A DNA stretch of 64,000 nt. Origin: Zygaena filipendulae (Eukaryota > Arthropoda > Insecta > Lepidoptera > Zygaenidae). The first letter of the stretch is position 1; each line of letters opens with the position of its first letter. The notes beneath the pieces were generated by a model. The model was not told the DNA's origin and searched no databases. It saw only the letters and a list, made by a program, of their open reading frames with translations. Of the stretch, positions 10,099 through 34,326 are shown piece after piece. The translations under genes and the position numbers were made by a program. The stretch spans positions 6,971,501-7,035,500 of the forward strand of contig OU015670.1 in assembly GCA_907165275.2 (NCBI GenBank), in the 5' to 3' direction.

Positions 10099-10285
10099 GG
10101 CCCCGAAAAGGGCCTTTTTTTTTGGCTTTAAAAACCTATTTATTTAATTTTCGAATCGCGTTCTTTGCTTGATTTCTCGAGGCGTGCATGCATATTCTTG
10201 TAGCGAGCCAGTTTCCGTAACTTTTCTTGTTTGACTCGTCGGACGTACTGATTTCTTACACGGGACAACACGTTTTTTAAATGGA

Positions 10286-11589
10286 TTCATTCCAGTATAT
10301 AAAAAAGGTGACAAGTCTGACGTACAAAATTACAGACCGATTTCTATTCTTTCCTGTTTCTCGAAATTATTTGAATCTCTCATATATCCAGTAGTTTACC
10401 ATCACGTCGAGGACAAGTTATCGGACTTCCAGCATGGTTTTAGAAGTGGACGGTCTGTAGAAACGAATCTGGCGACCTTAGTGTCCACTATAGCCCATGA
10501 AGTCGACAACAGGCAACAGGTAGACACTATTTACACAGACTTTAGTAATGCTTTTGATAAAGTCAGTCACTTCGCATTATTACTCAAGCTTCAAACATAC
10601 GGAATTGGTGGATCCCTGTTAAACTGGTTTTCCTCTTACTTAGTAAAAAGACCTCAATCAGTGGTGGTTAATGGTTTTGAATCTATGGTTTACACCGCTG
10701 TCTCTGGCGTCCCGCAGGGGTCCCACTTAGGCCCCATCCTTTTCTTGATTTTTGTCAATGATATTACCACCCAGGTAAAGTATAGCAGAATCTCCATGTT
10801 TGCTGATGATATCAAAATCTATAGGACTGTAAAAGACCCGACAGATGCTAAGCTAATTCAAGCCGACCTAAATAGTATACATAAATGGTGCTATAATAAT
10901 AACATGGTACTTAATACGAAAAAATGTCACCACATTACCTTTACGAGAAAGCAAAACCCTATAAACACCTCATTCTTAATTGATGGGGTAGCACTGACCA
11001 AAGTCAGCGAAATTCGTGACTTAGGAGTTATCCTAGATAGTAAATTGAAATTCTCAGTTCATATCGACAAAATAGTCAAGAAGGCCGCGCAAATTCTGGG
11101 CTTCCTCAAACGTAACTCTTGTGGATTTAGGCTGCCTCAAACGCGAATAATCTTGTACAACAGTCTTGTCCGCAGTCACTTAGACTTTGCCAGCGTTGCC
11201 TGGAGCCCTGTATATAGTGCATCCTCTCAGCGGATTGAAAGTATTCAGCGTGCTTTTACCAGACATCTTGCATATCTCTCATCAGGAATTTCTCATAAAA
11301 ATCCCTACGAACAACGGCTTAACTATTTCAAAATGTGTGATCTACGGAATAGAAGAATGATTTCTTAATGTTCCTGCATAAGATACTTAACAATAAACTC
11401 AAATCTGCTCATCTTCTTGAAAGCATAAAGCTGAAAATCCCCCACAAATACCCTCGTCATCAAATCACGAAAGCATTCGAGGTGGATGCCTGCAGGACTA
11501 ATTTAGGTTTGCATCGACCCCTCGCTAGGATCTGTATGCTTTACAACGAGGTAAATGCGAAAATATCTGATATCGACATATGTATATAA
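10286..11589 (+). pseudogene. Reverse transcriptase of the truncated LINE
   Basis: Open from the truncation point to 11,368. Reverse transcriptase blocks in order are NYRPISILSCFSKLFE, GFRSGRS, YTDFSNAFDKV, GVPQGSHLGP and the catalytic MFADDIKIY, then the thumb motif LGVILDSKLKF. At 11,365 the frame stops and the natural C-terminus continues in another frame (11,368-11,589), so there is a frameshift. No endonuclease domain remains because of the 5' truncation. Probably Jockey/CR1 group; the clade was not determined. Confidence 0.85.
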
Positions 11590-12001
11590 CGATTCGCAGA
11601 GCGCTTTTAAAAGTAAATTGCTGAAACACATTAATTGTACCACACGATCATAGTAATAAGCTTATGTTTTGGTTTGTTCGTGCTGACTTACCTAAGTATT
11701 TTTGTTTTTTTTTCCCCTTTTATTTCTCAATTTTATCATTGTTTAGCGTGCCTACGTGCAGTCGGCGTCGGAGATGTGTAGACACTTTATTGCAATAAGA
11801 TCCAACAACAGCTGTCAAGGGTGGCTGCATATTTCCCATGACGACTGTACATTATAAAACTTTTGTTCTTGCAGATTGTAACTTGCAATGATGTGCATAC
11901 CGCTAATTGGCATGCATGTATGTCTAATACTTAAACGATGTAACTTTTATAACCTAATACTATATATGCTGTGCTGTTGGTGTGCCAATAAATAAATAAA
12001 T
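10286..12001 (+). mobile_element. 5'-truncated non-LTR retrotransposon
   Basis: Bounded by a 7-bp target site duplication AAATGGA (10,279-10,285 and 12,002-12,008); the A-rich ending overlaps the (AATA)n tail at about 11,986-12,004. It starts inside the reverse transcriptase, so it is a classic 5' truncation, and it has inserted in antisense orientation to the type 2-like gene. Confidence 0.85.
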
Positions 12002-12041
12002 AAATGGACCATCCTCCTTATTTGCTGCACTTTTAGGACTT

Positions 12042-12488
12042 CAGGGAGGCAATTCTCACACATTCGAAGTAGACTCGAACTTGAGATAAAGTTCGAATTC
12101 GAACATTAAATCGAGATGAAGTCAAGTTGAGCAATTCTCGACATGTCGACTTCGACATTTCTCGAATGAAAGCCGTTCAAACTGCTTCGACTGGTCGGAA
12201 GCGGTCGTGACGTAAATTTCGAATTCGAATCTTCATAAATGTCCAATAGCGGTGCCGTGCGTGACAGTTTCAGAAGTTGTTGTTGTGTAGAATGGAATGG
12301 ATACGTCTTTGAATAAGCTTTTACTGGCAACATTTTACACTATAAACTCGAAGTCTAGTTCGATTTGTGTTGAGAATAGGAGATACGAAGAAACAGGTTC
12401 GAGTATCGAGATTTTGTGGTCGACATAGCGATCGAACAGCAAACTCGAGTTCGAGATTTTTTCGAAGGAGGCGAAAATTGGGCCCCTG
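12042..12488. mobile_element. MITE with TTCGAA-rich interior
   Basis: A 447-bp insertion in the diverged type 2 gene. Ends are imperfect inverted repeats starting CAGGG (CAGGGAGGCAATTCTCAC at the left, CAGGGGCCCAATTTTCGC at the right on the other strand), a start typical of hAT-type elements. The interior is full of TTCGAA/TCGAG palindromes. A clear target duplication was not found. Confidence 0.5.
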
Positions 12489-12573
12489 TTCTTTTCATTC
12501 TTAAATGCTTGATCCACACCTTAAAGTACTCTGCAGAACATATCCTAAGATCGTAAACGCCGTCTCTGAACAT

Positions 12574-13183
12574 TATGATTTCCTCGGAAATTGCTCGTTA
12601 AAAGTATGAGTGGCACTGCGGTCGGAAAGTAAATGAAGATTTTGTGCATTCGACTAGCTGATCTGACATTAATTCAAGAATAGTATTGTAGAATCTTATA
12701 CTTCATGTTTTCGTGAAATAACTTTACATTTGTTGTGATATCGTTCTCTCTGAGTGCGGCAGTTTCGTTTTTAAAATCTTTACTTAAAATTAATTAATCA
12801 TTAAAATTACTCTCAGTGCGGCCGATAGAGTCTTAAAATATAAGAAATGCATGTTTTCCTGAAATAACTTTACAGTTAACTTGTTATTTTTCTCATCATC
12901 GCGGTTTCTGGTTCAGAAACTCAATTTATGCTGTTGTTTTATTCAATTAGGGGCTTTTAACAATGGAAAAAGTTGGATAGGAATGAGGAAATAAAATAAC
13001 GTTAAAATACAAAATTAAATGAATGTAAGTCTTACAAATTGTTTTTTTTCGTGACCGTTCTAGTGTTGTTTTAGAAATTATTTATTTTATTTTATTGTAT
13101 GAAAAAATGGTGTTATTGCCTGTGGTGTGTGTTGACGTCATGTTTCTTGAAAGTAAATTTAATATACTTAACGAAACAAATGT
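12574..13183. other. Array spacer with half of a foldback repeat
   Basis: At about 12,751-12,829 lies one unit (GAGTGCGGCAGTTT ... CTCAGTGCGG) that matches one arm of the large hairpin at 28,462-28,694. The rest is the common spacer with GGTTTCTGGTTCAGAAACTC and GGATAGGAATGAGG. Near 13,133-13,152 (minus strand) is the conserved AAGAAACATGACGTCA block found after every well-preserved array gene. Confidence 0.55.
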
Positions 13184-13224
13184 GGCCCTGAAAAGGGCCT
13201 TTGTGTTCGACTCTGTCAAGAGCC
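13184..13224 (-). terminator. Pair of histone-type 3' stem-loops after type 1 copy 1
   Basis: On the minus strand, 17 bases after the TGA at 13,241-13,243, comes hairpin 2 (13,224-13,209, GGCTCT-TGAC-AGAGTC). Nine bases later comes hairpin 1 (13,199-13,184, GGCCCT-TTTC-AGGGCC) flanked by ACAAA and ACA. Six base pairs plus a four-base UUUC loop with these flanks is the consensus of the metazoan replication-dependent histone mRNA stem-loop bound by SLBP. A purine-rich CAAGAAAC lies about 35 bases further on, somewhat far for a histone downstream element. An AATAAA also occurs near 13,090, so ordinary polyadenylation is possible. Confidence 0.75.
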
Positions 13225-13240: not shown

Positions 13241-14373
13241 TCATGTTTCGACATCCATGTCGTCGGATTCGTCGGTGAGGTCGATGATTGGATTCGCACT
13301 ATCCGGCGTTAGCTGCTCCAGAAACACCGTCATCATAGGCGTATCGCATGCACATCCGATCTTATTCACAATCATGATTTTTTTCCCTTGGTACACAAAT
13401 GTGCTCGTCGTGACCGGGATGTCTTCCAAGATGGTGATTGCAGGCTCTACCCTTGGAGGTGACTCTTGGATACGGCTCGCCTCATCGATAGCAGTGTTGC
13501 AATCCTGTAGAATGATTAATTATTTAATTGTTTATTTTTTAAATAACAATAGCAATATTACCAGACGATCCTAGACTACCGTAAGCTTCATATTTACTAA
13601 GAAATCGTATATAGTATACTACATATTTTTACTACAAATATGGAAATCGTAACCCTGTGATCATCACATAAAGTGTGTACCTATCCGCCGGGTCCGAACC
13701 CGGGACCTCTGGAACCTCCGAGTTTCTCACGGATCATGTTTTGTTACTTGCAGAATATATTCAATAACCTAAAAAGGTTTATGTAGCACTGTCAAGTTGC
13801 TACAATGTTTGTAAATTAGTAAATAAATAAATAAATAAATAATAAATCTATATAATAAAAATGAATCGTCAAATGTGTTGGTAAGCGCATAACTTAATAA
13901 CTTACAAACGACTGCACCAAATTGGAAAATTGATTTTTTTTGTGTTCGTTATTGTCAGGACAAGGTTTATATAAAAGAAGTTTTGAGTTCCTGCGGGAAT
14001 TCCGAAACTCACGCGGGTGAATCTCCGAAACGGTTGGACCGATATTATGTCTATGTCTAATTAGCTGTTATTATAAGGAGTACATTAGACTGCATTGGAG
14101 TTCTTGCGGGAATTCCGAAACTCACGCAGGTGAAACCGCGGGGCACAGCTAGTAAATAAATAAATTGAAAGTAGGACTTACCACTTCTAGAACCGGAGGA
14201 GGGCAGACCATCTTTTTTCGTCCCGTTTTAGATTTCTTTGTTGCCCCTATGCGTTTAGTTGCTTTGCCAGTAATTTTCACAATCCGCAACCTAATTTTCG
14301 GAGCCATCATGGGTAGGTTTGACTCAACCAACTCGCTCGTATAGACCGGTAAAGTTTCATCTCCCAAAGCCAT
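13241..14373 (-). CDS. Type 1 array gene, copy 1 (SUMO-interacting-motif protein)
   Basis: Exon A is 14,373-14,182 (ATG at 14,371-14,373, 64 codons), the donor is GTAAGT at 14,176-14,181, and exon B is 13,504-13,241 after a TTCTACAG acceptor. Both junctions are phase 0; the product is about 151 residues. Residues 1-35 contain LPVYTSELVESNLP and APKIRLRIVK, and residues 36-55 are strongly basic (KATKR..ATKKSKTGRKK), a likely nuclear or nucleic-acid-binding segment. The C-terminus carries PIIDLTDESDD, which fits the consensus SUMO-interacting motif: a hydrophobic core followed by acidic residues. No enzyme domain is visible and I recognise no family. The 0.68-kb intron contains a tRNA-like repeat and a Helitron. 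An initiator/DPE block lies upstream and twin histone-type hairpins lie downstream. Confidence 0.7.
13847..14152 (+). mobile_element. Lep1-type non-autonomous Helitron in the intron of copy 1
   Basis: Begins TCTATATAATAAAA after an A and ends CACAGCTAG before a T, as expected for Helitron insertion between A and T. The 3' end has the lepidopteran CACGCAGGTGAAACCGCGGG signature. It is not seen in the introns of the other type 1 copies, so it arrived after the family expanded. Confidence 0.75.
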
Positions 14374-15005: not shown

Positions 15006-15044
15006 GGCCCTGAAAAGGGCCTTTGTTCGACTCTGAGAAGAGCC
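15006..15044 (-). terminator. Histone-type stem-loop pair after type 1 copy 2
   Basis: Hairpin 2 is 15,044-15,029 (loop TCTC) and hairpin 1 is 15,021-15,006 (GGCCCT-TTTC-AGGGCC). The second hairpin begins 17 bases after the stop at 15,061. Confidence 0.75.
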
Positions 15045-15060: not shown

Positions 15061-15865
15061 TCATGTTTCGACATCCATGTCGTCGGATTCGTCGGTGAGG
15101 TCGATGATTGGATGCGCACTATCCGGCGTTAGCTGCTCCAGAAATACCGTCATCATAGGCGTATCGCATGCACATCCGATCTTATTCACAATCATGAATT
15201 TTTTCCCTTCGTACACAAATGTGCTCGTTGTGACCGGGATGTCTTCCAAGATGGTGATTGCAGGCTCTACCCTTGGAGGTGACTCTTGGATACGGCTCGC
15301 CTCATCGATAGCAATGTTGCAATCCTGTAGAATGATTAATTATTTAATTGTTTTTTTTTTTAAAATAACAATAGCAATATTACCAGACGATCCTAGACTA
15401 CTAAGCTTCATATAAGCTTCATAAGCTTCATATTTACTAAGAAATCGTATATAGTATACTACATATTTTTACTACAAATATGGAAATCGTAACCCTGTGG
15501 TTATCACATAAAGTCTGTACCTATCCACCGGGATTCGAACCCGGGACCTCTGGACTGGTGGAGTAGCATGATGACTATAATGCGAACTATAATGCGAACC
15601 TCGCCACAGAGTTTCTCACCAATCATGTTTCGTTTCTTGCAGAATATATTAAATAATTGAAAGTAGGACTTACCACTTCTAGAACCGGAGGAGGGCCGAC
15701 CGCCTTTTTTCGTCCCGTTTTCGATTTCTTTGTTGCCCCTATGCGTTTGGTTGCTTTGCGAGAAATTTTCACAATCCGCAACCTAATTTTCGGAGCCATC
15801 ATAGGTAGGTTTGACTCAACCAACTCGCTCGTATAGACCGGTAAAGTTTCATCTCCCAAAGCCAT
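15061..15865 (-). CDS. Type 1 array gene, copy 2
   Basis: Exon A is 15,865-15,674 and exon B is 15,324-15,061, with phase 0 junctions and the same donor (GTAAGT) and acceptor (CTACAG) as copy 1. The reading frame is intact with about 151 residues. Differences from copy 1 include a glycine replacing cysteine before PPPVLEV, FVYEGKKF, and His before PIIDLTDESDD. The SUMO-interacting motif is unchanged. This copy lies directly before the DNA transposon that later received the Ty3 element. Its counterpart in the duplicated block is copy 5. Function unknown; small basic, possibly nuclear SUMO-binding protein. Confidence 0.7.
15325..15673 (-). repeat. tRNA-like SINE in the intron of type 1 genes
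   Basis: The minus strand reads CCCGGGTTCGAATCCCGG, an RNA polymerase III B-box (GGTTCGAATCC at about 15,541-15,531), followed by a conserved ~190-bp tail (AAATATGTAGTATACTATA, CTAGGATCGTCTGGTAATA) up to the acceptor. No complete tRNA cloverleaf can be drawn. Equivalent copies occupy the introns at about 31,174-31,424, 38,963-39,290, 43,591-43,819 and 49,603-49,898, and a mutated one lies at 13,505-13,760. Confidence 0.55.
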
Positions 15866-16623: not shown

Positions 16624-17550
16624 TGTGCACACCTTGCACATGAGCACAGAAATACTTACGAAAATACTCACATACTTCACAGCGGTTTACCTCCATGTAC
16701 CTACCATTACCAAACCGCGTACGTAACATACCTTCACCGGGGAATTGGATTAAGGATCAGGAAGGTTGAAGGAGCAAGAGAGAAATAACATACACAGTGG
16801 AATCACCTTATTATCAAATCACAAGAAAGAAACAGGACACGGACAATTTGTTATGTTATTCTTTATTGCCTAGCTGACTCAATTCCAACGAATTCCAGAC
16901 AGAGGAAAGTGCGAGGAGCAATCTTGAAAAAGACGACCTCGCTGGAGATTCGAAGGAACAGTCAAGCGACGTCACGTTCCTGGGTCACACTCACTGAAGT
17001 AACTACGCAAGCAAGATCAGGCAGTACATCAAATTGGAAAGAGTGGCTCTGAAAAGAGCCGTTTTTAATCGCCTGGATCTTGCGACGCTGTTGTACACCA
17101 TCAAGCACCATGGAACTACTCGGTCGGAGACACCTGTACGGCACCACACGCACATCCACGATTCGCGGTCCGGCGCGAGACGCGCGGCCTTGCGCTCTCA
17201 ACGATCGATGGCGACTGGCGCTTGAGACGCGGCGGACTGAGCTCCTGCGCGCGCGCCGCCCGCGTCCCCCGCGCCGTGCACCCCGCGCATGCGCGGTGCG
17301 AGTGTGCGACGAGAGGAGACTATGAAATTCTAGAAACTAGCATCTCGCTTGAATCTGTCCGCCGTTTAATGTACGATTTCTCATTGGTTGTTTGGTTGTA
17401 AATATTTAATGTTGTGTTTTTGATTGGTTGTTAGTTTTAAGGTTTTCTGTATATATAGCGCTAAGTTTTTAACAATAAATCACTTCCAAAATCCCATTTC
17501 TACAGCAAATGTGAGAGTAATACCTACCTGCTCGTAATACCTCCGCTACA
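16624..17550 (+). repeat. 5' LTR (927 bp)
   Basis: Starts TGTGCACACC and ends CCGCTACA. Contains a GC-rich central segment (about 17,100-17,310) and an AACAATAAATCAC region near 17,470 that could be the poly(A) signal. Confidence 0.9.
17045..17060 (-). other. Histone-type stem-loop inside the LTR, antisense
   Basis: The minus strand reads GGCTCT-TTTC-AGAGCC with flanks AAAAAC and ACTC, a canonical metazoan histone 3' stem-loop. It is repeated in the right LTR at 27,284-27,299, and in the third LTR (35,642-35,657) one arm has changed to AAAGCC. On the sense strand the same hairpin has a GAAA tetraloop, so it may instead be an RNA structure of the element. No histone coding sequence adjoins it. 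Confidence 0.5.
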
Positions 17551-21213: not shown

Positions 21214-23898
21214 CTAGGTGGGCTGCGTTGGCTCGTCATCGCGAGCGATAAGCTCGCGCGGATATCGCCTCCCCTCGGGTGGACGGGCGTGGAGGGGGGC
21301 CAGACCACGGATGTGCTCGTGGTCCGACGCATCCGCCCGCTCGAACATCCGAGAGGTGAGCCGCTGGACGAACTCATCCAGCGGCTCGACCCTCAGGTCC
21401 CTCTGGATAGTGGAGTTCCTCACGTAGCGAGGAGCTCCGGCAGCGGCACGCAGTGCCAAGGCTTGCTGCGATTGCAGGCTCTCGAGCAGGGACGCACATG
21501 GCAGTGCGTACCATGCCGGAGCGGCGTAGGTGAGTCGGGGCCTAATGTAGGTCTTGTAGACCCCGACTTTTACCCTCAGAGGGAGCCGAGAGTCGAGCAC
21601 GCCGCGCAGCTGATACCGCGCGGCGCGGGCGCTCGCGATGACGTTTCTCACGTGAGGCCTCAACGTGAGCCGACGATCCAGCGTGACCCCCAGGTACTTT
21701 ACCTGAGGGGACCACGCAATGTCCTGCCCGTAGAGGCGGAGAGGTGGCGGTGGGCGTTTAAGATTGCCGACGCATATGGCCTGTGTCTTCCCGACATTGA
21801 CCGACAGTCTCCACTTGGAGAGCCAGTCCGGGAGGAGGTCGAGCGTGCGCTGCAGCCGTTTCGCGGCGAACGCAGAGCTCATTGATGAGGTGTAGTACGC
21901 CGCGTCATCGGCGTACAGAGCCAACTCGACCCCATCCCCCACTGGGATGTCGTCGGTGTATCGGGAGTAACAGGCCGGGGAGAGGCAGCTGCCCTGCGGC
22001 ACGCCGGCCCCGATCGGACGCTCAGTCGAGGTGACGTCCTCGACCGCCACACAGAAGCGACGGTCGGATAGAAAGGACGCCACCACCCGGACTATACGCC
22101 GGGGAAGCGCGGACGACGATAGCTTCAGCAGAAGACCCTCATGCCAGACCCTATCGAACGCCTTCTCCATGTCGAGGAGAACAGCGACGGTGGTTGTCCT
22201 CTTGTTGAGGGCCACCGTCATGTGCTGGATCACCCTCGACAGCTGGAGGGTGGTGGAGTGTCCCGCCCGGAACCCAAACTGCTCCTTTCTAGGAGTGATG
22301 TGCGGAGACATGCGTCGCAGCAGTAGCAACTCGAACAGCTTCGAGAGCGTAGGCAGCAACGTGATGGGCCGATAGCTGCCGGGGAGAGTGACATTCTTCC
22401 CCGGTTTGGGCAGCATGATGACCTTGCCGGTTTTCCACACGGTGGGATAGTGCCCCGTGCGCAGGATACCGTTATACAGGCGCGTCACCGCCGCTATGGA
22501 GCGAAACGGCAGGTGACGCAGCGCTGCATTAGTGATACCGTCTGCGCCCGGGGCCTTACGCGGCTTCAGCTTTCGGGTCATCCGCTGCACCTCACCGGGG
22601 GAGAACACGATTGGGTCCTCCTCCGGCGCTATCGGCGCCGCGAAGTACTCCCGAAGCTGGGCAACCACTGCTGCGACGTGCTCCACATCGTCAGTGGGGT
22701 TTGGGCGGAACTGGCGTTCGAGATGGTCGGCGAGGATCCTCGCGCGGTCTTCCGCGCGGTACCTCAGCGTACCGTCGTCCGCTGTGAGCGGTCTGATCGG
22801 GGGCCGGGCGCCAGAGAGTTGGCGGCAGAGGCGATGGACACTGGTCCAGTCCTCGCTTGCCGCCTCAATGCGCCTCTCCCATGCGTCGGCTTCTTGCTCC
22901 CTCAGGGCATCCTTGATCTTGTCCGTGAGGGCGTTGAGCTCCGTCTTCATCCGGGGGCAGCGACATTGCTGCCACCGCCTGCGCAGGCGCCTCTTCTCGC
23001 CAATCATGTTCCTGATGTCGGCGGGAAGCGGGGGCAACCTGCCCCCCGTCGGCATGGTGCGCGAGGAGGTGTTGAGGGCGCCTTGGACACAGGCGGTGAT
23101 GTCCGAAGCCAGGAGCTCAACGTCCCCCGGAGAGACGAGGGGCCTCGAGGGGGTGCTCGTCGCCATCGAGCTGGAGAAACTTTTCCAGTCTATCGATCGG
23201 CGCGGCGCTGGTGGCGAGACTCTTTGTGGCATGTTCGCCAGGACGACCAGGACCGGGACATGGTCAGAGCCCATGTCCTCGGGCAGGGCCTCTATAGAGG
23301 GCCGGCAGAGGAGCCCACGGTGGGCTATGAGGTCGATGACGTCAGGTTGAAACGACGTCCGGGCCGGATAATGCGTAGGAGTTTCCGGCCCTTCGACCTC
23401 GTAGCCGCGGGCCTCGGCGTCGCGGAGGAGTCGTCTGCCGTTCGGGCAGTCGTGAGTCGAGTTCCACGCCGTGTGCTTGCAGTTGAAGTCGCCGGCAACG
23501 GCAGTGGGGATGTTGGAGTCCAGCAGGGTGTGCATATCACCCGGCTGGAATCTCAGCTGCGGCGGTTTGTACGCAGCGTACAGCCGCGTTGGGTTGCCGG
23601 CGATGCACAGCTCGACGCCCAGGGCGCTGAACGCCGAGAGCTGCACGGCGGGAACTCGTTGGTGAATGACTCCTCGCTTGACTAGCACTGCCAGCCCTCT
23701 ATAGGCATGACCCTGAGGACCGGTTTCGTCCTGGCGGTAAACGTGATAGCCGGCGACTGTTACGTTAGTCGTCGGCCCTAGAAGAGTCTCGCAGATCAGC
23801 GCCACGTCGATCTGCTGGTCGCGCAGGACGGTCTTCAGGACGGATGTTTTGCCCCGAAGACCGTTGGCGTTCCAGTAGATCATCCTGAGCGAGGTCAC
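21214..23898 (-). CDS. LINE ORF2: endonuclease and reverse transcriptase
   Basis: About 890 residues. The first ATG is at 23,881-23,883 (MIYWNANGLRG, the usual start of an apurinic-type endonuclease); the frame is open a few codons further and overlaps the ORF1 stop. Endonuclease motifs: ICETLL, GDFNCKHTAWNS, SDHVPVL. Reverse transcriptase motifs: FRAGHSTTLQLS, LDMEKAFDRVWH, GVPQGSCLSPACY and the catalytic ALYADDAAYY, then LGVTLDRRL. The frame is intact to TGA at the end. It acts in target-primed reverse transcription. Jockey clade is inferred from its domain layout together with ORF1. Confidence 0.9.
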   Translation of the reverse strand: MTSLRMIYWNANGLRGKTSVLKTVLRDQQIDVALICETLLGPTTNVTVAGYHVYRQDETGPQGHAYRGLAVLVKRGVIHQRVPAVQLSAFSALGVELCIAGNPTRLYAAYKPPQLRFQPGDMHTLLDSNIPTAVAGDFNCKHTAWNSTHDCPNGRRLLRDAEARGYEVEGPETPTHYPARTSFQPDVIDLIAHRGLLCRPSIEALPEDMGSDHVPVLVVLANMPQRVSPPAPRRSIDWKSFSSSMATSTPSRPLVSPGDVELLASDITACVQGALNTSSRTMPTGGRLPPLPADIRNMIGEKRRLRRRWQQCRCPRMKTELNALTDKIKDALREQEADAWERRIEAASEDWTSVHRLCRQLSGARPPIRPLTADDGTLRYRAEDRARILADHLERQFRPNPTDDVEHVAAVVAQLREYFAAPIAPEEDPIVFSPGEVQRMTRKLKPRKAPGADGITNAALRHLPFRSIAAVTRLYNGILRTGHYPTVWKTGKVIMLPKPGKNVTLPGSYRPITLLPTLSKLFELLLLRRMSPHITPRKEQFGFRAGHSTTLQLSRVIQHMTVALNKRTTTVAVLLDMEKAFDRVWHEGLLLKLSSSALPRRIVRVVASFLSDRRFCVAVEDVTSTERPIGAGVPQGSCLSPACYSRYTDDIPVGDGVELALYADDAAYYTSSMSSAFAAKRLQRTLDLLPDWLSKWRLSVNVGKTQAICVGNLKRPPPPLRLYGQDIAWSPQVKYLGVTLDRRLTLRPHVRNVIASARAARYQLRGVLDSRLPLRVKVGVYKTYIRPRLTYAAPAWYALPCASLLESLQSQQALALRAAAGAPRYVRNSTIQRDLRVEPLDEFVQRLTSRMFERADASDHEHIRGLAPLHARPPEGRRYPRELIARDDEPTQPT

Positions 23899-26315
23899 AC
23901 CTGCTGCAGGATGCGGGACATCCCGCTCAGGATGACCTGGATGGGGTCGGCGTCGTCCCTGATGGCCACCAGCACATCTTGGAGGACGCCGATCACCATC
24001 TCGATGGCGACGAGCTTGTTGCTCTTGCCCGCTCCCGGGGCCCGGGGCTTAGAAGCGCCGGGCCTGCGGGCAGCGGGGAGAGCCGTTGCTGATGGAGGTT
24101 GGGGAGGAGCGGTGGCCGGACCAGAGGTCACCGCCGGGGGCGCTGAAGCAGCCCCCTCCCTGCTCCCCTTCTTCTTTTTGTTGCCCCTCTTTCTTTTCCT
24201 CTTCACGCCGGAAGAGGAAGGAGGGGCCGCCGCACCCGGAGCACGCCGCTTCGGGGTGTTCGCAGGCGCCATCAGAGTGGTGGCGCCGGCTTCCGCTGCC
24301 ACCTGCGCCACTTGCGGGGCAACAGGTCGGCCGGTGGACAGGGCGACCGTGCCTGCCTTTTTATTACGGGCTTCTCTCTTGAAGACAGGGCACGACGCCC
24401 TGTTGGCCGGGTGTGCCCCCCCGCAGTTGACGCAGGTGGGGGGCTCCTCTTTGGGGCGGGGGCAGTTGGCAGCGGCGTGCTCCTCGCCGCAGCGGACGCA
24501 CGCGAGCCTCCGGTGGCAGCCGAACGACGAATGCCGGAACTGCTGACACCGGTGGCATTGCGCGGGTCCGCGCTTGCCCCGCCAGGCGTCAATTTTGATC
24601 CCGGGCATACACAGCATCTCTGTGACGTTGTATATGCCCGGGGTAAGGTTCGGGGTGCGGCGCAGTTGGGCGTAATATATGCAGCCGGGCCTGCCGGCGC
24701 GGGCGCGAATGGGGCGGACGTACTCCGGCTCGTAGCCCATGGCTACGAGCTCCTGGGTAATTTCCGACGGATCGGTGTCGATCGGTAGCCCCCTTATTGC
24801 TACCTTGACACTCTGATCCGCCGGAAGGGAGTACGCGAACCAGGATACCGTCCGGTCTTCCTTTTCCAGCGCCGTTAAATAGCGCTGGACCAGACGGTAT
24901 TCCGATTCGTCCTTCGGAATGAAGCGCACGCCCTTGCCATATGGGCGTGCGCTAGGAGTCCGCCCCAGTTTTTCCCTGAGGACGCGGAAGTGGCGCGCCC
25001 AGTCGGGAAGGTTTTCCACGACCAGGGGGGGGTAGGCGCTCCTGCGCTTGTCCCCCTTTCGCGCCGCCCCCGCGCCGCCGCCGGCAGGCGCGGTTGGAGC
25101 GGCTGGAGCGGCGGGCTGTGCGTCCATCGGCGCAGCAGCGGGCGCCGGTGGGGACTCAGCCCGCGCGGCATCGGCGAAAGTGGGCCGTATGGGGGCCCTT
25201 GCAGGGCTCGCTCCGGACCTCGGAGGGCTCATGGGGGAGTCCAACGGAGGGCTCTCCGGCCTGGCGGCCGCGAGCGGACGTGCTCGCGGCTCGCGTTGCG
25301 GCCTGGGAGACGGGAGGCTCAGAGCGCCCTCTGGGGGCGACAAATTGTGGCAGGCTCGCTTGCCAGGCTCCTCGTCATCGGAGGAGTCGGGGACGCGCAG
25401 CCTGCGTGACGCCCCCGCAGGGGGAGTTTCCAGTGCCGGTAGGTGCAGAGGAGCCTTACGTGCGAGTTGTACGTGAAATTCCTCCTCCGCGGTCCTACCG
25501 GCCAAGCTCTCCGAGGAGCCATGTAGGGCGCGTCTGCGGTCCCGCAGCGTGCGCGCCATCGCCTCCAACAGCTCCCCGGACAAAAGCCCCGTCTGCTTCA
25601 ACCTGGAGGTTATGAGCATATCAACCTCCAGGTGGGCATTCGGGGACATGTCCGGGCGGTGAAGGGGTAGCTGAACCGGTGGGGGCGGCATTTCGGCCGC
25701 GGACGCGCGGCTGGTGTGCACGAGCGTCGCCGAGCCGGCGGTTGTTACAGGGGTGGGGGGATACTTAGATGCCCCCAGCCCCCGAGGCGCCGCCGACTCG
25801 GCGGCGCGCGGGGGTCCACGCTCCTTGAGCCCCTCCGAGGTGCGGGCACGCACCGGCGAGGGGGTCGGTCGCCCGAACTCCGGTCCGGCCCTCGTAGGGG
25901 ATGAGGGCGCGGAGCGGGGGGGCGGAGCTGCCCTTGACTTGGGGGCAGCGGGGCGCGGGGCCGGCGAGCTATGTTTCGCCGGTCGCGACGCGCTGTCCCC
26001 AGGCGAAGGGGGGGCCGTTCCGGGTGAGATGGCGCCCGGGAAGGCGGGCTGCGCCGGACGCGACGCGACGGTCATGGGCGGGGGCAAACTGTGCCCTGTG
26101 CCCCTGGCCGCCGCGGCGCGCGGGGCAGGAGACGAGGCCGCGGTGGCACCCGTTTGAGCAGACACCAGTTCGGGGGTGTGTGCGGTCGACTGAGTCGCCG
26201 GCCGCTTGCCCCCGGGCTGGGTCGCCGCGGAGCGCGACGGCGGGTGGTCGCCGTCGCGAGGGGGAGGCGCTTCCCGCGTTAGACGCGGGTCGCGTGACGG
26301 AGCCCTGCCCGCCAT
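23895..26315 (-). CDS. LINE ORF1: gag-like protein with three zinc knuckles
   Basis: Starts at ATG 26,313-26,315 and encodes 806 residues. The first ~400 residues are Pro/Ala/Arg-rich and presumably disordered. A PRE_C2HC-like region follows (SVKVAIRGLPIDTDPSEI), then three zinc knuckles: C-x2-C-x4-H-x4-C, C-x2-C-x3-H-x4-C and C-x2-C-x3-H-x6-C (around 24,560-24,390). The arrangement is typical of Jockey-clade ORF1. Its C-terminus has a KRKRKRGNKKKK basic patch. The stop overlaps the ORF2 frame by a few bases, so ORF2 is probably translated by coupling or reinitiation. Confidence 0.88.
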   Translation of the reverse strand: MAGRAPSRDPRLTREAPPPRDGDHPPSRSAATQPGGKRPATQSTAHTPELVSAQTGATAASSPAPRAAAARGTGHSLPPPMTVASRPAQPAFPGAISPGTAPPSPGDSASRPAKHSSPAPRPAAPKSRAAPPPRSAPSSPTRAGPEFGRPTPSPVRARTSEGLKERGPPRAAESAAPRGLGASKYPPTPVTTAGSATLVHTSRASAAEMPPPPVQLPLHRPDMSPNAHLEVDMLITSRLKQTGLLSGELLEAMARTLRDRRRALHGSSESLAGRTAEEEFHVQLARKAPLHLPALETPPAGASRRLRVPDSSDDEEPGKRACHNLSPPEGALSLPSPRPQREPRARPLAAARPESPPLDSPMSPPRSGASPARAPIRPTFADAARAESPPAPAAAPMDAQPAAPAAPTAPAGGGAGAARKGDKRRSAYPPLVVENLPDWARHFRVLREKLGRTPSARPYGKGVRFIPKDESEYRLVQRYLTALEKEDRTVSWFAYSLPADQSVKVAIRGLPIDTDPSEITQELVAMGYEPEYVRPIRARAGRPGCIYYAQLRRTPNLTPGIYNVTEMLCMPGIKIDAWRGKRGPAQCHRCQQFRHSSFGCHRRLACVRCGEEHAAANCPRPKEEPPTCVNCGGAHPANRASCPVFKREARNKKAGTVALSTGRPVAPQVAQVAAEAGATTLMAPANTPKRRAPGAAAPPSSSGVKRKRKRGNKKKKGSREGAASAPPAVTSGPATAPPQPPSATALPAARRPGASKPRAPGAGKSNKLVAIEMVIGVLQDVLVAIRDDADPIQVILSGMSRILQQV

Positions 26316-26862
26316 CCGCTTAGGTGCGAGATGGCCGACAGGGTCAACACGAGGGGGAGGGGGGGTTAGGACCCGCCCACAGTGCGCTCCGAATAGAGAA
26401 GACGCACGCCAGCACCTAACAGCGCCCCGCTACGGACATTTGATCCGAAGCGGTGCGCGCCGGCCGCTGGTTTGCGTCTCCCCTAGGCCGCAGGCTCGAC
26501 CGAGAGGCCACAGAAGGCCGCGACCTTCCTGCCGCTCCCGCCCGCAGCGCCGTACAGCACCGCTGCGACGATACCACGGTTAGCAAACTCAGTTGCCGCT
26601 CCCTGGTATCGCGCGCAGCACTGCACGAAGCCGTGCGCGGAAGACGGACGCGGCTCGGGGGGCGTAAACAAGAAATTACGCCGCCGAGACCGCGTTGGAG
26701 AGAGCCGGGAGCCGGAACAGAGCACGAACACGTCGCAGGACACAGCAACAGCAGCGGCAGCAGGATCAGGATCAGCTTGCAGCTCCGAAGTGTAGTCAGC
26801 GGTGGATGGGTAGCCAGTCCGAGTCGTGAAGAAAACCGTACGCTTTGCTTGAAGGGGGATAC

Positions 26863-27789
26863 TGTGCACACCTTGCACATGAGCACAGAAATACTTACGA
26901 AAATACTCACATACTTCACAGCGGTTTACCTCCATGTACCTACCATTACCAAACCGCGTACGTAACATACCTTCACCGGGGAATTGGATTAAGGATCAGG
27001 AAGGTTGAAGGAGCAAGAGAGAAATAACATACACAGTGGAATCACCTTATTATCAAATCACAAGAAAGAAACAGGACACGGACAATTTGTTATGTTATTC
27101 TTTATTGCCTAGCTGACTCAATTCCAACGAATTCCAGACAGAGGAAAGTGCGAGGAGCAATCTTGAAAAAGACGACCTCGCTGGAGATTCGAAGGAACAG
27201 TCAAGCGACGTCACGTTCCTGGGTCACACTCACTGAAGTAACTACGCAAGCAAGATCAGGCAGTACATCAAATTGGAAAGAGTGGCTCTGAAAAGAGCCG
27301 TTTTTAATCGCCTGGATCTTGCGACGCTGTTGTACACCATCAAGCACCATGGAACTACTCGGTCGGAGACACCTGTACGGCACCACACGCACATCCACGA
27401 TTCGCGGTCCGGCGCGAGACGCGCGGCCTTGCGCTCTCAACGATCGATGGCGACTGGCGCTTGAGACGCGGCGGACTGAGCTCCTGCGCGCGCGCCGCCC
27501 GCGTCCCCCGCGCCGTGCACCCCGCGCATGCGCGGTGCGAGTGTGCGACGAGAGGAGACTATGAAATTCTAGAAACTAGCATCTCGCTTGAATCTGTCCG
27601 CCGTTTAATGTACGATTTCTCATTGGTTGTTTGGTTGTAAATATTTAATGTTGTGTTTTTGATTGGTTGTTAGTTTTAAGGTTTTCTGTATATATAGCGC
27701 TAAGTTTTTAACAATAAATCACTTCCAAAATCCCATTTCTACAGCAAATGTGAGAGTAATACCTACCTGCTCGTAATACCTCCGCTACA
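26863..27789 (+). repeat. 3' LTR (927 bp)
   Basis: Same length as the 5' LTR, with no difference noticed on reading, which implies recent insertion. Followed by the CCTA duplication and the continuation of the DNA transposon. Confidence 0.9.
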
Positions 27790-28694: not shown

Positions 28695-29316
28695 GGTTAA
28701 TATCTTGAAATTTTTGGTACTAAATGTGATAAGATCTTTGCCTTATTGTTTTCGCAATAAAAATAGCATTTAATCATAATAAATGTTTAAAAACTTTTTT
28801 TATTACAAATTCGTGATATTTTACTTTAATATCTTTAAGCTATAAAAAAACAACTAATTACACACTAAATTCTATTTTAAAAGACTTTTTATTCTTTAGA
28901 TAGGAAGTATTCGAAAAATTCGAAATATTCGAATAGTGATGAGCCAAAATGTTCGAATAGTAAATAAGGCGAATATTCGAATAATACGAATATTTGAATA
29001 TTCGAATAGGAAGCCGTAAGCATGATAATCAATTGAGACCTGAGTTACCCGATACGGTAAAAATAAATAACGGTATTTTTAGGCCTCAGGTAGCCATGGG
29101 GTCGAGTCCTTTGTGCTGTTTTTTTTGCGTCTCGACTACGATAAACCCTTTGTCGTTGTTTGACTATATTTTGGTCTATACTAATTCTAGTCTTAGGCGT
29201 ATCTAATTTAAAGGTAAAACGGAAAATATTGCGTTATGTTTTAAAAAGTTATGTCGTTTATTTTATTTGCTTTATAACATCCAGAGTTCCCACGAGAGTT
29301 TCGAGATAAAAAGTAC

Positions 29317-29371
29317 CCTATGTCCTATGTACCCTATGTCCTATGTACCCTATGTCCTATTTTGTACCTAT
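29317..29371 (+). repeat. 16-bp minisatellite
   Basis: GTACCCTATGTCCTAT repeated three times; the paralogous block at about 41,750-41,785 has two units. Confidence 0.8.
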
Positions 29372-30017
29372 GACAAGGTGTAGTAAAATTTCTTTATGAT
29401 CGTTTGTGTAGTTATGTCGTGAATACGTAACAAACATTTTAACTCACATTCTCATTTTATAATATAAGTTAGGATTATAAACGTCGTTGAATTGCCAAAA
29501 GTTTTGTCTTGATAGCTACGCACTGGGTAGGATCTTGTCTAAGGCATTCCTCAATGATTTGCCGCACAGATATGAAATGTTGTATATGCATTCACTAACT
29601 TTTTAAAGCTCTCTTATAATTTTATTAATATAGAAATATTATATTTATAATTCCATATAATTATAACCTGGTTAAGTTTGTATGTTTGTAAGTTAATAAG
29701 TTGTAGGTAATGTAGGGGGTAATATTTGAAAATAATGATGTACTTCCGTACAAACTCTAACCTCCTTTTTACCCCTTTAGATGTGTCCAAAAACTCTTTC
29801 GTAGTGCTCACATCAAAATTTGAAAACCATTTTATGACCACTTGCTTGTATCCAACTGATATGAAACGGCATCCGTAAATTGCCTTTGCCTAAGAGTTCC
29901 GACCTAGATTTCGTTATGAAAGACCCATAATCTACCGTAGCTGTTGTCCAATACCGTCTTATTTCTTTTTTTACTGAAGACATTTTTCTAGAAATCATCT
30001 TCTGTTATAATAAAAAA

Positions 30018-30340
30018 TCTTGTGGCCCCGAAAAGGCCATTTTTGATTGTGCTCTGAAAATAACCTTTTTTAAATTATACTCGACACGCTTTCTTGAGTT
30101 TTTGGCAAACTGCATAAATCAGCCACCTGTGATAACATGTTCTTTAGATGGACCATCTTCCTTAACTGGTTCATTTTCACGGCTTCAGTCAGTTCAATTT
30201 CTAAATGTTACGTCCACGCCTTGAGGTACTCCATGGTACACTTCCTCAGATCATATAATAGCCGTCTCTGAGTTTTCCTTTTATCTTTTTTGCAGACGCC
30301 CTGTGTCTGGTTTCTGCACGGTCTTTTTCACAATATGTTT
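30018..30340 (-). pseudogene. Degenerate type 2 gene (block A)
   Basis: Keeps the C-terminal two thirds of the type 2 gene (from TGTCTGGTTTC near 30,308 to the end near 30,080) with changes that break the frame, and lacks the N-terminus. The downstream hairpins (about 30,019-30,069) are eroded. The counterpart in block B is 42,432-42,755. Confidence 0.65.
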
Positions 30341-30852
30341 TCCTGAAATAACTTTACAGCTGTTGTAATATTGTTTAATATCGTTATGAACTTGTTATTA
30401 TTCTTATCTTCGCGGTTTCTGGTTCAGAAATTCAATTTATGCTTCTGATTTATTAAATTAAGTAATTAATTAAGTAAATAATTAAATAATTTTAATGTTA
30501 TTTTATTTATTATTTTATTTCCTCCTTCCTACATTCCTATCCAACTTATTTCATTGTTATTAGCCCTTAATTGAATAAAATAGCATAAATTGAGTTTCTG
30601 TAACCCCATAATTAGTGTCTTATTACAACTAATTTGGTAACTTTTTAAATAACTCTTTATATGATCGATGAAATTAGTTACAGTGTTTTTATGGGACAAA
30701 GAGTCGATTTAACTCTGAAAAGAATCGAATCAATTTGCAAAATTAAAAACTTTAAAGACAGAATTGTATGAAAAAATGGTGTTATTGCCTGTGATGTGTG
30801 TTGACGTCATGTTTCTTGAAAGTAAATTTAATATACATAACGAAACAAATGT

Positions 30853-30893
30853 GGCCCTGAAAAGGGCCTTTGTGTTCGACTCTGACAAGAGCC
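30853..30893 (-). terminator. Histone-type stem-loop pair after type 1 copy 3
   Basis: Hairpin 2 is 30,893-30,878 and hairpin 1 is 30,868-30,853 (GGCCCT-TTTC-AGGGCC), directly after the stop at 30,910. No AATAAA was noticed in the ~100 bases after hairpin 1. Confidence 0.75.
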
Positions 30894-30909
30894 TTTTTCC
30901 AATTTTTCA

Positions 30910-31616
30910 TCATGTTTCGACAGCCATGTCGTCGGATTCGTCGGTGAGGTCGATGATTGGATGCGCACTATCCGGCGTTAGCTGCTCCAGAAATACCGTC
31001 ATCATAGGCGTATCGCATGCACATCCGATCTTATTCACAATCATGAATTTTTTCCCTTCGTACACAAATGTGCTCGTTGTGACCGGGATGTCTTCCAAGA
31101 TGGTGATTGCAGGCTCTACCCTTGGAGGTGATTCTTGGATACGGCTCGCCTCATCGATAGCAGTGTTGCAATCCTGTAGAATGATTTATTAATTAATTGT
31201 TTTTTTTTTTTAATAATAATAGCAATATTACCAGATGATCCTAGACTAACGTAAGCTTCATATTTACTAAGAAATCGTAACCCTGTGGTTATCACATAAA
31301 GTCTATACCTATCCGCCGGGATTCGAACCCGGGACTCTCGGACTGGTGGAGTAGCATGATGACTATAATGCGAACCCGGCCACCCGGGCCCCGCCGGTAT
31401 TAAATAATTGAAAGTAGGGCTTACCACTTCTAGAACCGGAGGAGGGCAGACCGTCTTCTTTCGTTCCGTTTTAGATTTCTTTGTTGCCCCTATGCGTTTA
31501 GTTGCTTTGCGAGTAATTTTTACTATCCGCAACCTAATTTTCGGAGCCATCATGGGTAGGTTTGACTCAACCAACTCGCTCGTATAGACCGGTATAGTTT
31601 CTTCTCCCAAAGCCAT
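30910..31616 (-). CDS. Type 1 array gene, copy 3
   Basis: Exon A is 31,616-31,425 and exon B is 31,173-30,910. The donor is GTAAGC, still acceptable, and the acceptor is CTACAG; both are phase 0. About 151 residues, frame intact. It starts MALGEETIPVY, has KSKTERKK in the basic part, and ends DESDDMAVET instead of DESDDMDVET. SUMO-interacting motif preserved. The short 251-bp intron carries the tRNA-like repeat. Nearly identical to copy 6 in block B. Confidence 0.7.
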
Positions 31617-32014
31617 TGAGAGTAATATCTATGTAATTAAAAAACGAAAAATATATTTCTTCCAATTCACTTGTCCACGTCAGTTCACTGTGGCTGTTCG
31701 TTGAGAACTGATAAATGACTGAACCAATTCTAAAGGAGAGCGACAGCATGATAATCACTTGAGACCTAAGTTACCTGATACGGTAAAAATAAACAAAGGT
31801 ATTTTTAAGCCTCAGGTAGCCATTGCCAGGAGTCCTTTGTGCTGTTTTTTTTTGGGTCAAGACTACGATGAACCCCTTGTCTTTGTTTGACTATATTGTG
31901 GTCTATATTAATTTTAAACTTGTATAGTTAATTTAAAGGTGAAATGGAAAATATTTCGTTATGTTTTCAAAAAAGTATTATCGTCTATTTTATTTGCTTT
32001 AGTTATATCGTGAA

Positions 32015-32125
32015 AACGCCCTGTTTCTGGTTTCTGCGCGGTCATTTTTCTCAATACGCAACACAAGTTTTGGTGCCGTCATTAGTTCATTAGACTCAAT
32101 CAATTGCCTTTTATGACATTTAGGT
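32015..32125 (-). pseudogene. Type 2 N-terminal fragment
   Basis: Matches the part of the type 2 gene encoding the SQLIESN/APKLVLRIV region (GTTTTGGTGCCGTCATTAG, TTAGACTCAATCAATTG) but has no downstream coding part. The same fragment occurs at about 44,415-44,525 and 53,085-53,195. Confidence 0.6.
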
Positions 32126-32148
32126 CTAAGAATAGTTTTATAGTCTTA

Positions 32149-32376
32149 CTAGTAGTGCCTGCGGTTTCACCCGCGTTAATTTCAGAGTTTCCGCGGGAAT
32201 TCTGGGATAAAAAGTACCCTATATGTTAATCTGATGTATAAGCTATATTATTGTAAAGTTTCGTTTAAATCCATCCAGTAGTTTCTGCGTGAAAGAGTAA
32301 CAAACATCCATCCAACCATCCATCCAGCCATCCATACGTTCTTACAAACTTTCGCGTTTATAATATTATAGTAGGA
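32149..32376 (-). mobile_element. Lep1-type Helitron (228 bp), block A
   Basis: On the minus strand begins TCCTACTATAATATTATAAA and ends GCACTACTAG between A and T. Contains a (CATC)n run. Copies in the duplicated blocks sit at 44,545-44,772 and 53,220-53,447, so it predates the block duplications. Confidence 0.75.
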
Positions 32377-32966
32377 TATTTTTATGTTTTCCTGAAGTAA
32401 CTTTACGGCTGTTGTGATATCGTTTAATATCGTTATTAACTTGTTATTTTTCTCATCTTCGCGGATTCTGGTTCAGGAACTAAATTTATGCTGTCGTTTT
32501 ATTCAATCAAGGGCTAATAACAATGGAATAAGTTGGATAGAGATATAGGAATGAGGAAGTAAAATAATAATAAATAAAATAACATTGAAACAAAGAATTA
32601 AATAAATCTAGGTCTTATAACTAGTCCTAATAATTTTTTTTCGCGTCTGTTCTAGTTGTGTTCGGAATTATTTTTGTTACTGTAATTAAGCTTATCATGG
32701 TTCCTATATAAATAAACCCATAATCAGTCTCTTTTTACAACTAATTTGTTAACTTTTTAAATAACTCTGCAGATGATCGATGAAATTAGTTACAGTGATT
32801 TTATGTGACCAAGAGTTAATTAAACTCTGAAAAAAAACACAAAACAATTTCAAAAATAAAAAACTTAAAAGATAGAATTATAATGAAAAAACGGTGTTAT
32901 TGCCTGTGGTGTGTGTTGACGTCATGTTTGTTGAAATAACTTTAATATTTTTAACGGAACAAATGT

Positions 32967-33007
32967 GGCCCTGAAAAGGGCCTTTGTGTTTGGCTCTGAA
33001 AAAAGCC
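32967..33007 (-). terminator. Histone-type stem-loop pair after type 1 copy 4
   Basis: Hairpin 2 is 33,007-32,992 (GGCTTT-TTTC-AGAGCC, one wobble) and hairpin 1 is 32,982-32,967 (GGCCCT-TTTC-AGGGCC). Confidence 0.75.
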
Positions 33008-33011
33008 TTTT

Positions 33012-33428
33012 CTATGGAAGCCTTTTTCTAATTTGTGATAATTTTTCGACGTCCATGTCGTCGGATTCGTCGGTGAGGTCGATGATTGGATGCGCACTAT
33101 CCGGCGTTAGCTGCTTCAGAAATACCGTCATAATGGGCGTATCGCATGCACATCCGATCTTATTCACAATCATGAATTTTTTCCCTTGGTACACAAATGT
33201 GCTAGTCGTGACCGGGATGTCTTCCAAGATGGTGATTGGGCAGACCGTCTTCTTGCGTCCCGTTTTAGATTTCTTTGTTGCCCCTATGCGTTTAGTTGCT
33301 TTGCGAGTAATTTTTACAATCCGCAACCTAATTTTCGGAGCGATCATGGGTAGGTTTGATTCAACCAACTTGGTCGTATAGACCGGTAAAGCTTCTAAGC
33401 TTAAAGGTTTTAAAAGACCCAAAGCTAT
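33012..33428 (-). pseudogene. Type 1 fused single-exon variant, copy 4
   Basis: Exon A and exon B are joined directly: the frame passes from KKTVCP straight to ITILEDIP. The intron, the last ~5 codons of exon A and the first ~24 codons of exon B are gone, so this is a deletion and not clean intron loss. The cognate start codon is ATA (33,428-33,426, in ATAGCTTTGGG) and a short insertion gives LLKPLSLEALPVY. The C-terminus is extended (DVEKLSQIRKRLP). The SUMO motif is intact. Without ATG, translation could only begin at the Met of MIAPKIRLRIVK. Possibly still expressed; scored as a pseudogene. Confidence 0.6.
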
Positions 33429-33660
33429 TTAAAATTCTAATTTGAAATCGTTTCTCTATTTTGCAATAACTGATTCATTAATCGCCTGACATGATATTCT
33501 TAAAAAATTGTTATTAAGACATATTTGTATAATTATAAACCAATAGCTTAGTTTGGAATTAAGTATACATATAATGTGTGTTGTGAAGTCTTATTTTGTT
33601 TTTATTTTTACTGACGTCATGTTTTTAGAAATCGTCTTTAGTTATAATAGAAAATTTTGC

Positions 33661-33702
33661 GGCCCTCAAAAGGGCCTTTTTGGTTTGGCTCTGAAAAGAA
33701 CC
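33661..33702 (-). terminator. Histone-type stem-loop pair after type 2 (block A)
   Basis: Hairpin 2 is 33,702-33,687 (GGTTCT-TTTC-AGAGCC, one G-U pair), 9 bases after the stop. Hairpin 1 is 33,676-33,661 (GGCCCT-TTTG-AGGGCC; G in the last loop position is atypical). An AATAAA at about 33,601-33,606 offers an alternative 3' end. Confidence 0.7.
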
Positions 33703-33711
33703 TTTTTTAAA

Positions 33712-34044
33712 TTACACTCGTACTCGACATGCTCTCTTGAGTTTTTTGACAAAGTGCATATCCTCCACCTGTGATAACATGTTCTTTAGATGGACCATCT
33801 TCCTTAACCGGTCCATTTTTACGGATTCTGTCAGTTCGATTTCTAAATGTTTCATCCACACCTCGAGGTACTCCACGGTACACTTCCTCAGATCATAGTG
33901 GCCGTCTCTAAGTCTCCCTTTTGTCTTTTTTGTAGACGCCTTGTGTCTGGTTTCAGCATGGTCTTTTTTCACAATGCGCAAGACAAGTTTTGGTGCCTTC
34001 ATTGGTTTGTTAGACTCAATCAATTGGCTTTTATAAAACGCCAT
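33712..34044 (-). CDS. Type 2 array gene (block A)
   Basis: Single exon, ATG 34,042-34,044, 110 residues, stop TAA. Residues 1-30 (FYKSQLIESNKP, APKLVLRIVKK) are clearly related to type 1 residues 10-38. A basic stretch (ETRHKASTKKTKGRLR) follows, then a probably helical part (YDLRKCTVEYLEVWMKHLE, RLRKMVHLKNMLSQVE) and a basic tail (KKLKRACRVRV). No known domain recognised; a small basic, probably nuclear protein. Unlike type 1 it has no intron and no SUMO motif. Twin histone-type hairpins follow the stop. Four further intact copies (46.1, 47.4, 48.7, 54.8 kb) are almost identical. Confidence 0.65.
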   Translation of the reverse strand: MAFYKSQLIESNKPMKAPKLVLRIVKKDHAETRHKASTKKTKGRLRDGHYDLRKCTVEYLEVWMKHLEIELTESVKMDRLRKMVHLKNMLSQVEDMHFVKKLKRACRVRV

Positions 34045-34097
34045 TGCGGATGAAAACAATTTCTCGAAATTTGATAAGTGGGTTGTATGCGTGAGAC

Positions 34098-34144
34098 AGG
34101 TGTCTTTACTTGGGTGATTCGTTAAGAACTGCGGCAGTTCTTAA
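34098..34144 (-). promoter_or_regulatory. Type 2 initiator region with 11-bp palindrome
   Basis: An exact palindrome (arms TTAAGAACTGC at 34,122-34,132 and its complement at 34,134-34,144) contains an initiator GCAGTT with +1 at 34,130. ACACCT sits at +28 to +33, five of six matches to the DPE. The block aligns with the type 1 promoter (CAGTTCT.AACGAA). The 5' UTR would be 86 bases. Confidence 0.4.
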
Positions 34145-34245
34145 CCGCCCAACTCTTTTGCACACTTTGCACTTAATGGTCATTAACATTTTACCGGAAA
34201 GAGCGAGACCACACTCCAACCCAATCACCTTACTCTGTCGCACAT

Positions 34246-34326
34246 AGGGCTTCCAATACTCGTCCATTTTTCCTATTCGAATATTTCGAATAGTTCCAAA
34301 GCCAATATTCGAATTATTCGAATATT
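34246..34326. repeat. 81-bp end of the ATTCGAAT transposon
   Basis: Terminal 81 bp of the 1.85-kb DNA transposon (AGGGCTTCC ... ATTCGAATATT) abutting type 1 exon B, 11 bases past its stop. Identical junctions are at 46,644-46,724, 47,944-48,024 and 49,247-49,327. At each of them the histone-type hairpins are missing. Confidence 0.8.

Follow-up and report, generated by a model that had tools for sequence, protein, structure and literature searches.

In Zygaena filipendulae, a family of small non-histone genes carries the stem-loop that ends replication-dependent histone mRNAs, and the pre-mRNAs of this family are, judging from sequence, probably processed like those of replication-dependent histones. 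In histone mRNAs, the hairpin is bound by SLBP and replaces the poly(A) tail (the SLBP/U7 pathway). The family occupies three loci: an array on C21, which lies in the 64,000-nt stretch of contig OU015670.1 analyzed here (the window, from whose first base positions are counted), and unlinked loci on C6 and C20. On balance, we lean towards reading these genes as a source of non-histone replication-dependent mRNAs in an insect, encoding a multi-locus family of mostly basic, chromatin-type proteins whose messages share the histone stem-loop 3′ end. The initial annotation had proposed histone-type 3′ stem-loops behind non-histone genes, and this holds: the hairpins are on the sense strand, and the distal type 1 hairpin is that of the animal's own histone genes.

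Paired stem-loops in the C21 array

Two consecutive 16-nt hairpins had been noted after a stop codon at 13184–13224, and both are present there on the minus strand. The pair belongs to copy c1 of a type 1 gene and begins 16 nt 3′ of its TGA stop, with 9 nt between the two hairpins. The proximal hairpin (SL1, 13209–13224) is GGCTCT-TGAC-AGAGTC. The distal hairpin (SL2, 13184–13199) is GGCCCT-TTTC-AGGGCC, identical to the stem-loop of the own histone genes, and scores 34.6 bits with the Rfam Histone3 model, RF00032, which has a curated gathering cut-off of 34 bits. A consensus stem-loop (GGYYYU, a four-base loop, ARRRCC) thus lies on the sense strand close 3′ of the stop; type 1 SL1 deviates from this consensus.

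A scan of the window with RF00032 returned 18 matches at E ≤ 1, all on the minus strand and seven of them above the cut-off. Copies of one gene family precede 16 of these hairpins, and the other two are in LTRs. Nine matches belong to type 1 copies, some of them short (hairpins 600, 13199, 15021, 30868, 43285, 32982, 45379, 54043, and 55532), six to type 2 copies (33676, 46073, 47373, 48677, 52110, and 54737), and one to a broken third lineage, X (10114). All six type 2 matches and three of the ten other family matches score below the cut-off. With a strict paired consensus as the hairpin pattern, GGYYYTTTNNARRRCC, we found 27 occurrences on the minus strand of the window, two of them in the LTRs, and none on the plus strand; 60 dinucleotide shuffles of the window yielded no match. 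These shuffles, together with the absence of the reversed 16-mer from the genome, reject an origin of the hairpins by chance, to which we assign a negligible probability.

The form GGCCCT-TTTC-AGGGCC, initially described as usual for the distal hairpin, is found exactly, as GGCCCTTTTCAGGGCC, in eight of the 16 family places of the window, but the five intact type 2 genes have the loop TTTG, one loop base off the histone 16-mer. The proximal hairpin is the full consensus in type 2 and is weaker in type 1, where the second pair is G-U and the loop is TGAC, TCTC or TGTC; in copy c5 one pair of the proximal hairpin (43310) is broken. In the folds predicted for a type 1 end and for a type 2 end, both hairpins form (z = −2.3 and −2.4, respectively).

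The two LTR stem-loops, at 17022 and 27261, were set aside as a second case, being antisense in a plus-strand Gypsy element. This element has two identical LTRs (16624–17550 and 26863–27789) and an apparent 4-bp target duplication, CCTA. Each LTR contains a perfect histone-like hairpin in antisense, which reads as a GAAA-loop hairpin on the sense strand; in a related LTR (35152–36078) the hairpin is broken by one base. By identity, the nearest named relatives of the Gypsy pol are from Bicyclus, Plutella, Helicoverpa, and Mythimna. GC-rich minus-strand frames between the LTRs (21214–26968), with endonuclease and reverse-transcriptase domains at 21214–23895, represent a non-LTR element.

Two gene types share an old N-terminal block

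All family copies in the window are on the minus strand. Type 1 genes encode 151 aa in two exons, a basic exon 1 of 64 aa (pI about 10.2) and an acidic exon 2 of 87 aa, separated by a GT-AG intron of 229–677 nt. Exon 2 terminates in IIDLTDESDDMDVET and the sequence IIDLTDESDD is present; this end of type 1 is a putative SUMO-interacting motif. The frame and splice sites are intact in five copies, with the open frame and GT donor of exon 1 in 5/5 and the AG acceptor and frame of exon 2 likewise kept, and four of the five carry hairpins. These are c1 (exon 1, 14182–14373; exon 2, 13241–13504), c2 (exon 1, 15674–15865; exon 2, 15061–15324; tandem hairpins, 15006–15044), c3 (30910–31616, with exons 31425–31616 and 30910–31173; tandem hairpins, 30853–30893), and c5 (43327–44011, with exons 43820–44011 and 43327–43590; tandem hairpins, 43270–43310); the hairpins of c2 and c3 are among the RF00032 matches. 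The fifth copy (49339–50090) has an intact frame and no hairpins, and the repeat TTCGAATATT adjoins its stop. Hairpins are missing from the copies ending at 49342, 34341, 46739, and 48039 because another repeat begins right at the stop; in these type 1 copies a TTCGAATATT-type repeat stands in place of the hairpins.

Good hairpins are also kept in copies with broken frames. Copy 0, a type 1 pseudogene (561–1667) of which only the start of exon 1 was found, keeps both hairpins (625 and 600). In a short type 1 copy at 33012–33422 (hairpins 33007 and 32982), exons 1 and 2 are fused by a deletion and the start codon is gone. Further short copies have hairpins at 45404/45379, 54068/54043, and 55557/55532. 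The match to exon 1 begins only at residue 6 in the short copies at 33, 45, and 54 kb; in the 55.5-kb copy the frame is broken.

Type 2 genes have one exon encoding 110 aa (pI 10.1). Four of the five intact copies encode an identical protein: 33712–34044 (tandem hairpins, 33661–33702), 46109–46441 (46058–46099), 47409–47741 (47358–47399), and 54773–55105 (54722–54763). The fifth, at 48713–49045 (48662–48703), differs by one residue. Another copy (52156–52486; hairpins, 52095–52136) has a frame break, and a type 2 pseudogene at 30024–30329, with a similar copy at 42502–42743, has mismatches in both hairpins. Lineage X (10099–12567) is broken into fragments at 12487–12567 and about 10140–10271, between which sits a reverse-transcriptase fragment; at its 3′ end SL2 (10114–10099) is preserved and SL1 is degraded. 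The family had been described as intron-containing, which is true of type 1; the type 2 genes and the relatives on C6 and C20, judged by their open frames, are single-exon.

An N-terminal block is common to types 1 and 2 (alignment score 98, against a best of 56 in 5000 shuffles). In two comparisons of this block between the types, dS was 1.4 and 2.1 and dN was 0.34 and 0.32; with synonymous sites saturated, types 1 and 2 must have parted long ago, and the block has been under constraint. Each of the 10 pairwise comparisons among type 1 copies likewise has a dN smaller than its dS, although the counts are small.

Growth of the array has been recent. Segments 28801–34537 and 41237–46935 are a 5.7-kb segmental duplication with 97% identity, and 1.3-kb tandem units are about 98–99% identical. 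Genes of both types have recurrent CAGTTCT and AACGAA-like blocks upstream, which, by eye, may be an initiator and a downstream promoter element.

Hairpins and a downstream element are the retained parts of the 3′ ends

To the 3′ side of the c1 hairpins lies a conserved sequence, TTTCAAGAAACATGACGTC (13134–13152, minus strand), a candidate histone downstream element containing the TGACGTC common to most family flanks. In an 11-row alignment of 3′ ends, c1 and type 2 agree at 15/16 positions of SL2, 12/16 of SL1, and 17/20 of the downstream element, against 11/27 in the spacer and 8/22 further downstream. The retained parts of type 1 and type 2 ends would therefore be those expected in histone-type processing, a hairpin, a variable stretch, and an element, with the presumed cleavage site in the less conserved stretch between hairpin and element. 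In two rows the element is not preserved (copy 0 versus type 2, 11/20; X versus c1, 12/25). The type 2 pseudogene compared with type 2 gives 12/16 for SL2, 14/16 for SL1, 16/20 for the element, and 20/25 for the spacer, and so shows no preference for the hairpins. RNAalifold recovered only SL2 from the alignment, not SL1, with no pair changed on both sides, and covariation therefore adds no support.

Of 21 family flanks, among them many near-identical duplicates, 18 have TGACGTC between +36 and +45, and those of copy 0, X, and C20 lack it; none of nine distinct histone flanks has it. The element therefore belongs to the family. It may be a U7 site or, equally, something else; TGACGTCA, as we read it, resembles a CRE site.

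The histone hairpin at unlinked loci

Tandem hairpins had been presented as a trait of the family. They are one in the C21 array, but the four relatives on C6 and the one on C20 have single hairpins. On C6, the relatives comprise a C6s gene of 57 aa and three T3 genes of 75 aa, each read as a single-exon gene with a TATAAA-like box 5′ of the start and one hairpin, downstream of which lies TTTCATAAAATATGACGTC or TTTCATAAAATTTGACGTC. A tandem repeat of about 70 bp found 5′ of the T3 genes (C6:722–811 kb) resembles, by eye, the T3 promoter region. The C20 relative, found by DNA pattern, is a 74-aa frame with one hairpin.

Protein similarity ties these loci together with uneven strength. The alignment scores of C20 with T2 and of T3 with C6s were each reached by 0 of 4000 shuffles, those of C20 with C6s by 4/4000 and with T3 by 14/4000. 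Direct comparison of T2 gave weak scores (433/4000 with T3, 120/4000 with C6s), so that T2 is linked to the C6 genes through C20, a weaker connection. In a genome search the C20 query matched, besides itself, seven T2 or T2-pseudogene places, with weak E values of 0.013–0.125. For T3 and C6s, pS is 0.19 and pN 0.20, which gives no sign of protein constraint and could reflect fast evolution or constraint that was lost; for T2 and C20, pS is 0.79 and pN 0.50.

We considered capture of a histone hairpin by a mobile element, for which Tm1-HH of root-knot nematodes provides a precedent (PMC3169594). The array is transposon-rich, but the family is not dispersed: all 31 genome matches of the T1 query, and 27 of the 28 of the T2 query, fall inside the one array, the remaining T2 match being C20 (E = 0.07). 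This explanation is very improbable.

A search of the genome (366 Mb, 56 contigs) found 56 copies of the exact 16-mer GGCCCTTTTCAGGGCC and none of the reversed control; type 2 hairpins with the TTTG loop lie outside this count. Histone genes before the copies were identified by tblastn of histone proteins on the flanks. Histone genes or remnants (H2A, H2B, H3, H4) precede 43 of the 56 copies and family genes the other 13; no copy lies elsewhere. Among the histone-linked copies, 31 are in C21:2.517–2.643 Mb (one of them behind a 25-residue H2A remnant), six on C22 (including 2212295, 2215348, and 2216910), three on C11, two at C6:3.83–3.85 Mb, and one behind a broken H2B on C28. The family-linked copies divide into eight in the C21 array, four at C6:722–811 kb, and one at C20:2.272 Mb; eight of the 13 follow intact frames (c1, c2, c3, three T3 genes, C6s, and C20) and five follow short or broken array copies. 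Since the animal's own H2A, H2B, H3, and H4 genes have a hairpin identical to the distal one of type 1, type 1 carries the hairpin of its own histone genes.

Genome-wide, RF00032 matches at least 72 places (from 75 of 60125 candidates scored). Of the 72 listed, 37 score 28.7 bits, many paired 4.4–5 kb apart; these are probably LTRs similar to those of the Gypsy element, and LTR-like flanks were seen for some. A match above the cut-off at C1:8044644 (34.2 bits, GGCTTT-TTTC-AAAGCC) has no evident open frame before the hairpin.

The census bears on whether the hairpins are decaying, functionless relics of a single ancestral capture of a histone 3′ end. Such passive hitch-hiking would account for hairpins on the pseudogene and short copies, and the main histone cluster (C21:2.52–2.64 Mb) is on the same chromosome as the array. 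The hairpins have nonetheless survived a saturated synonymous divergence between types 1 and 2, and the exact 16-mer occurs on the unlinked C6 and C20 members. We therefore hold hitch-hiking to be improbable and retain histone-type processing as the preferred reading.

Tests of the encoded proteins give no match to histones

Pfam returned no match for T1, T2, C20, or T3, and for C6s a non-histone match below the cut-off. In comparisons of C20 and T3 with H4 and of C20 and T2 with H2B, similarity was no better than in shuffles. The possibility of a histone-like protein was rejected on these two grounds, the lack of a Pfam histone match and the lack of excess similarity in the four H4/H2B comparisons; by the tests made, the family proteins are non-histone. 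A word-based search of 5.8 billion proteins with T1 and T2 as queries found no homologue, and scans of viral contigs and of one bacterial genome found no relatives. Predicted structures were too poor (pLDDT 43.5 for T2 and 49.2 for type 1 exon 2), and searches of solved structures gave chance-level matches only. The proteins are strongly basic (pI 9.9–10.4) in four of five types, and in type 1 the first exon is basic. Because of this basicity we infer a chromatin role beside the histones as the likeliest function.

Discussion

By its anatomy, the family 3′ end would work like a histone 3′ end. SLBP would bind the distal hairpin, the U7 snRNP would pair with the downstream element, and the cleavage complex would cut a few nucleotides 3′ of the distal hairpin, leaving an mRNA that ends without poly(A). 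Such an mRNA would be tied to DNA replication, with expression in S phase, in the early embryo, or in germline proliferation. The proximal hairpin, confined to the C21 array, is a full consensus in type 2 and weaker in type 1, and so could be a second SLBP site or a fallback. An SLBP RNA-binding domain is encoded on C12 in two pieces about 0.9 kb apart, which we read as one gene. Rfam gave no match to U7 snRNA here and none in control genomes either, which makes that search uninformative.

Poly(A)-type signals lie downstream of many family hairpins. AATAAA follows the hairpin at +55 in the five type 2 genes, between +75 and +80 in three of the C6 genes, at +88 in c1, at +145 in copy 0, and at +280 in C20. 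ATTAAA is found at +21 in eight of the nine type 1 copies, short ones included. Of seven own histone flanks checked, two show AATAAA in the first 300 nt. The family signals make dual 3′ ends possible, and such ends are the main rival to histone-type processing: the hairpin would be functional, in stability or localization, and the mature mRNAs would mostly be polyadenylated at the downstream signals. The intron of type 1 fits such ends, and precedents come from two papers, which place poly(A) signals right 3′ of the hairpin in nematode histone genes (PMC1924863) and report dual ends for H2A.X (PMC7807067). Against this, AATAAA is missing from the 300 nt that follow the hairpin in c2, c3, and c5, and the conserved parts of the 3′ ends are the hairpin and the downstream element. 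We consider polyadenylation as the prevailing mode unlikely, though less so than hitch-hiking, and return to histone-type processing for comparison with known systems.

The family resembles replication-dependent histone genes in its 16-nt stem-loop (identical in type 1, C6, and C20; one loop base off in intact type 2), in an A-rich 5′ flank and a short distance from stop to hairpin, and in the single exon of type 2, C6, and C20. It differs from them in its proteins, in a downstream element unlike that of the own histone genes, in the tandem hairpins of the C21 array, and in the type 1 intron. In type 2 genes and in three of those on C6, AATAAA follows the hairpin, as described for C. elegans histone genes (PMC1924863); the genes there encode histones, and c2, c3, and c5 lack a nearby AATAAA, though they have ATTAAA at +21. 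The Cg-1/Tm1-HH elements of Meloidogyne likewise have a histone hairpin outside histone genes. According to PMC3169594, they are transposable elements that have terminal inverted repeats and show no obvious coding potential, unlike the protein-coding gene array and unlinked members found here. These root-knot nematode elements and histone mRNAs proper are the closest known cases. Histone mRNAs are described in recent papers (PMC6303110 and PMC12775136) as the sole animal protein-coding messages with such an end, and our search of the literature, with most subscription journals outside its scope, found no protein-coding non-histone case of a histone hairpin end.

The present genes suggest that this rare type of mRNA end is not exclusive to histones. 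If histone-type processing holds, poly(A)-minus messages under SLBP control would form a class wider than the histones, and such genes would have been kept out of annotation by poly(A)-selected RNA-seq. Routine annotation may have a blind spot for short-frame genes whose messages end without poly(A), which would fit the failure of T1 and T2 to find relatives in the protein collection. A natural non-histone family of this kind would permit tests of the timing in the cell cycle, export, translation, and decay that the hairpin imposes, of the role of paired hairpins, and of the compatibility of an intron with histone-type processing.
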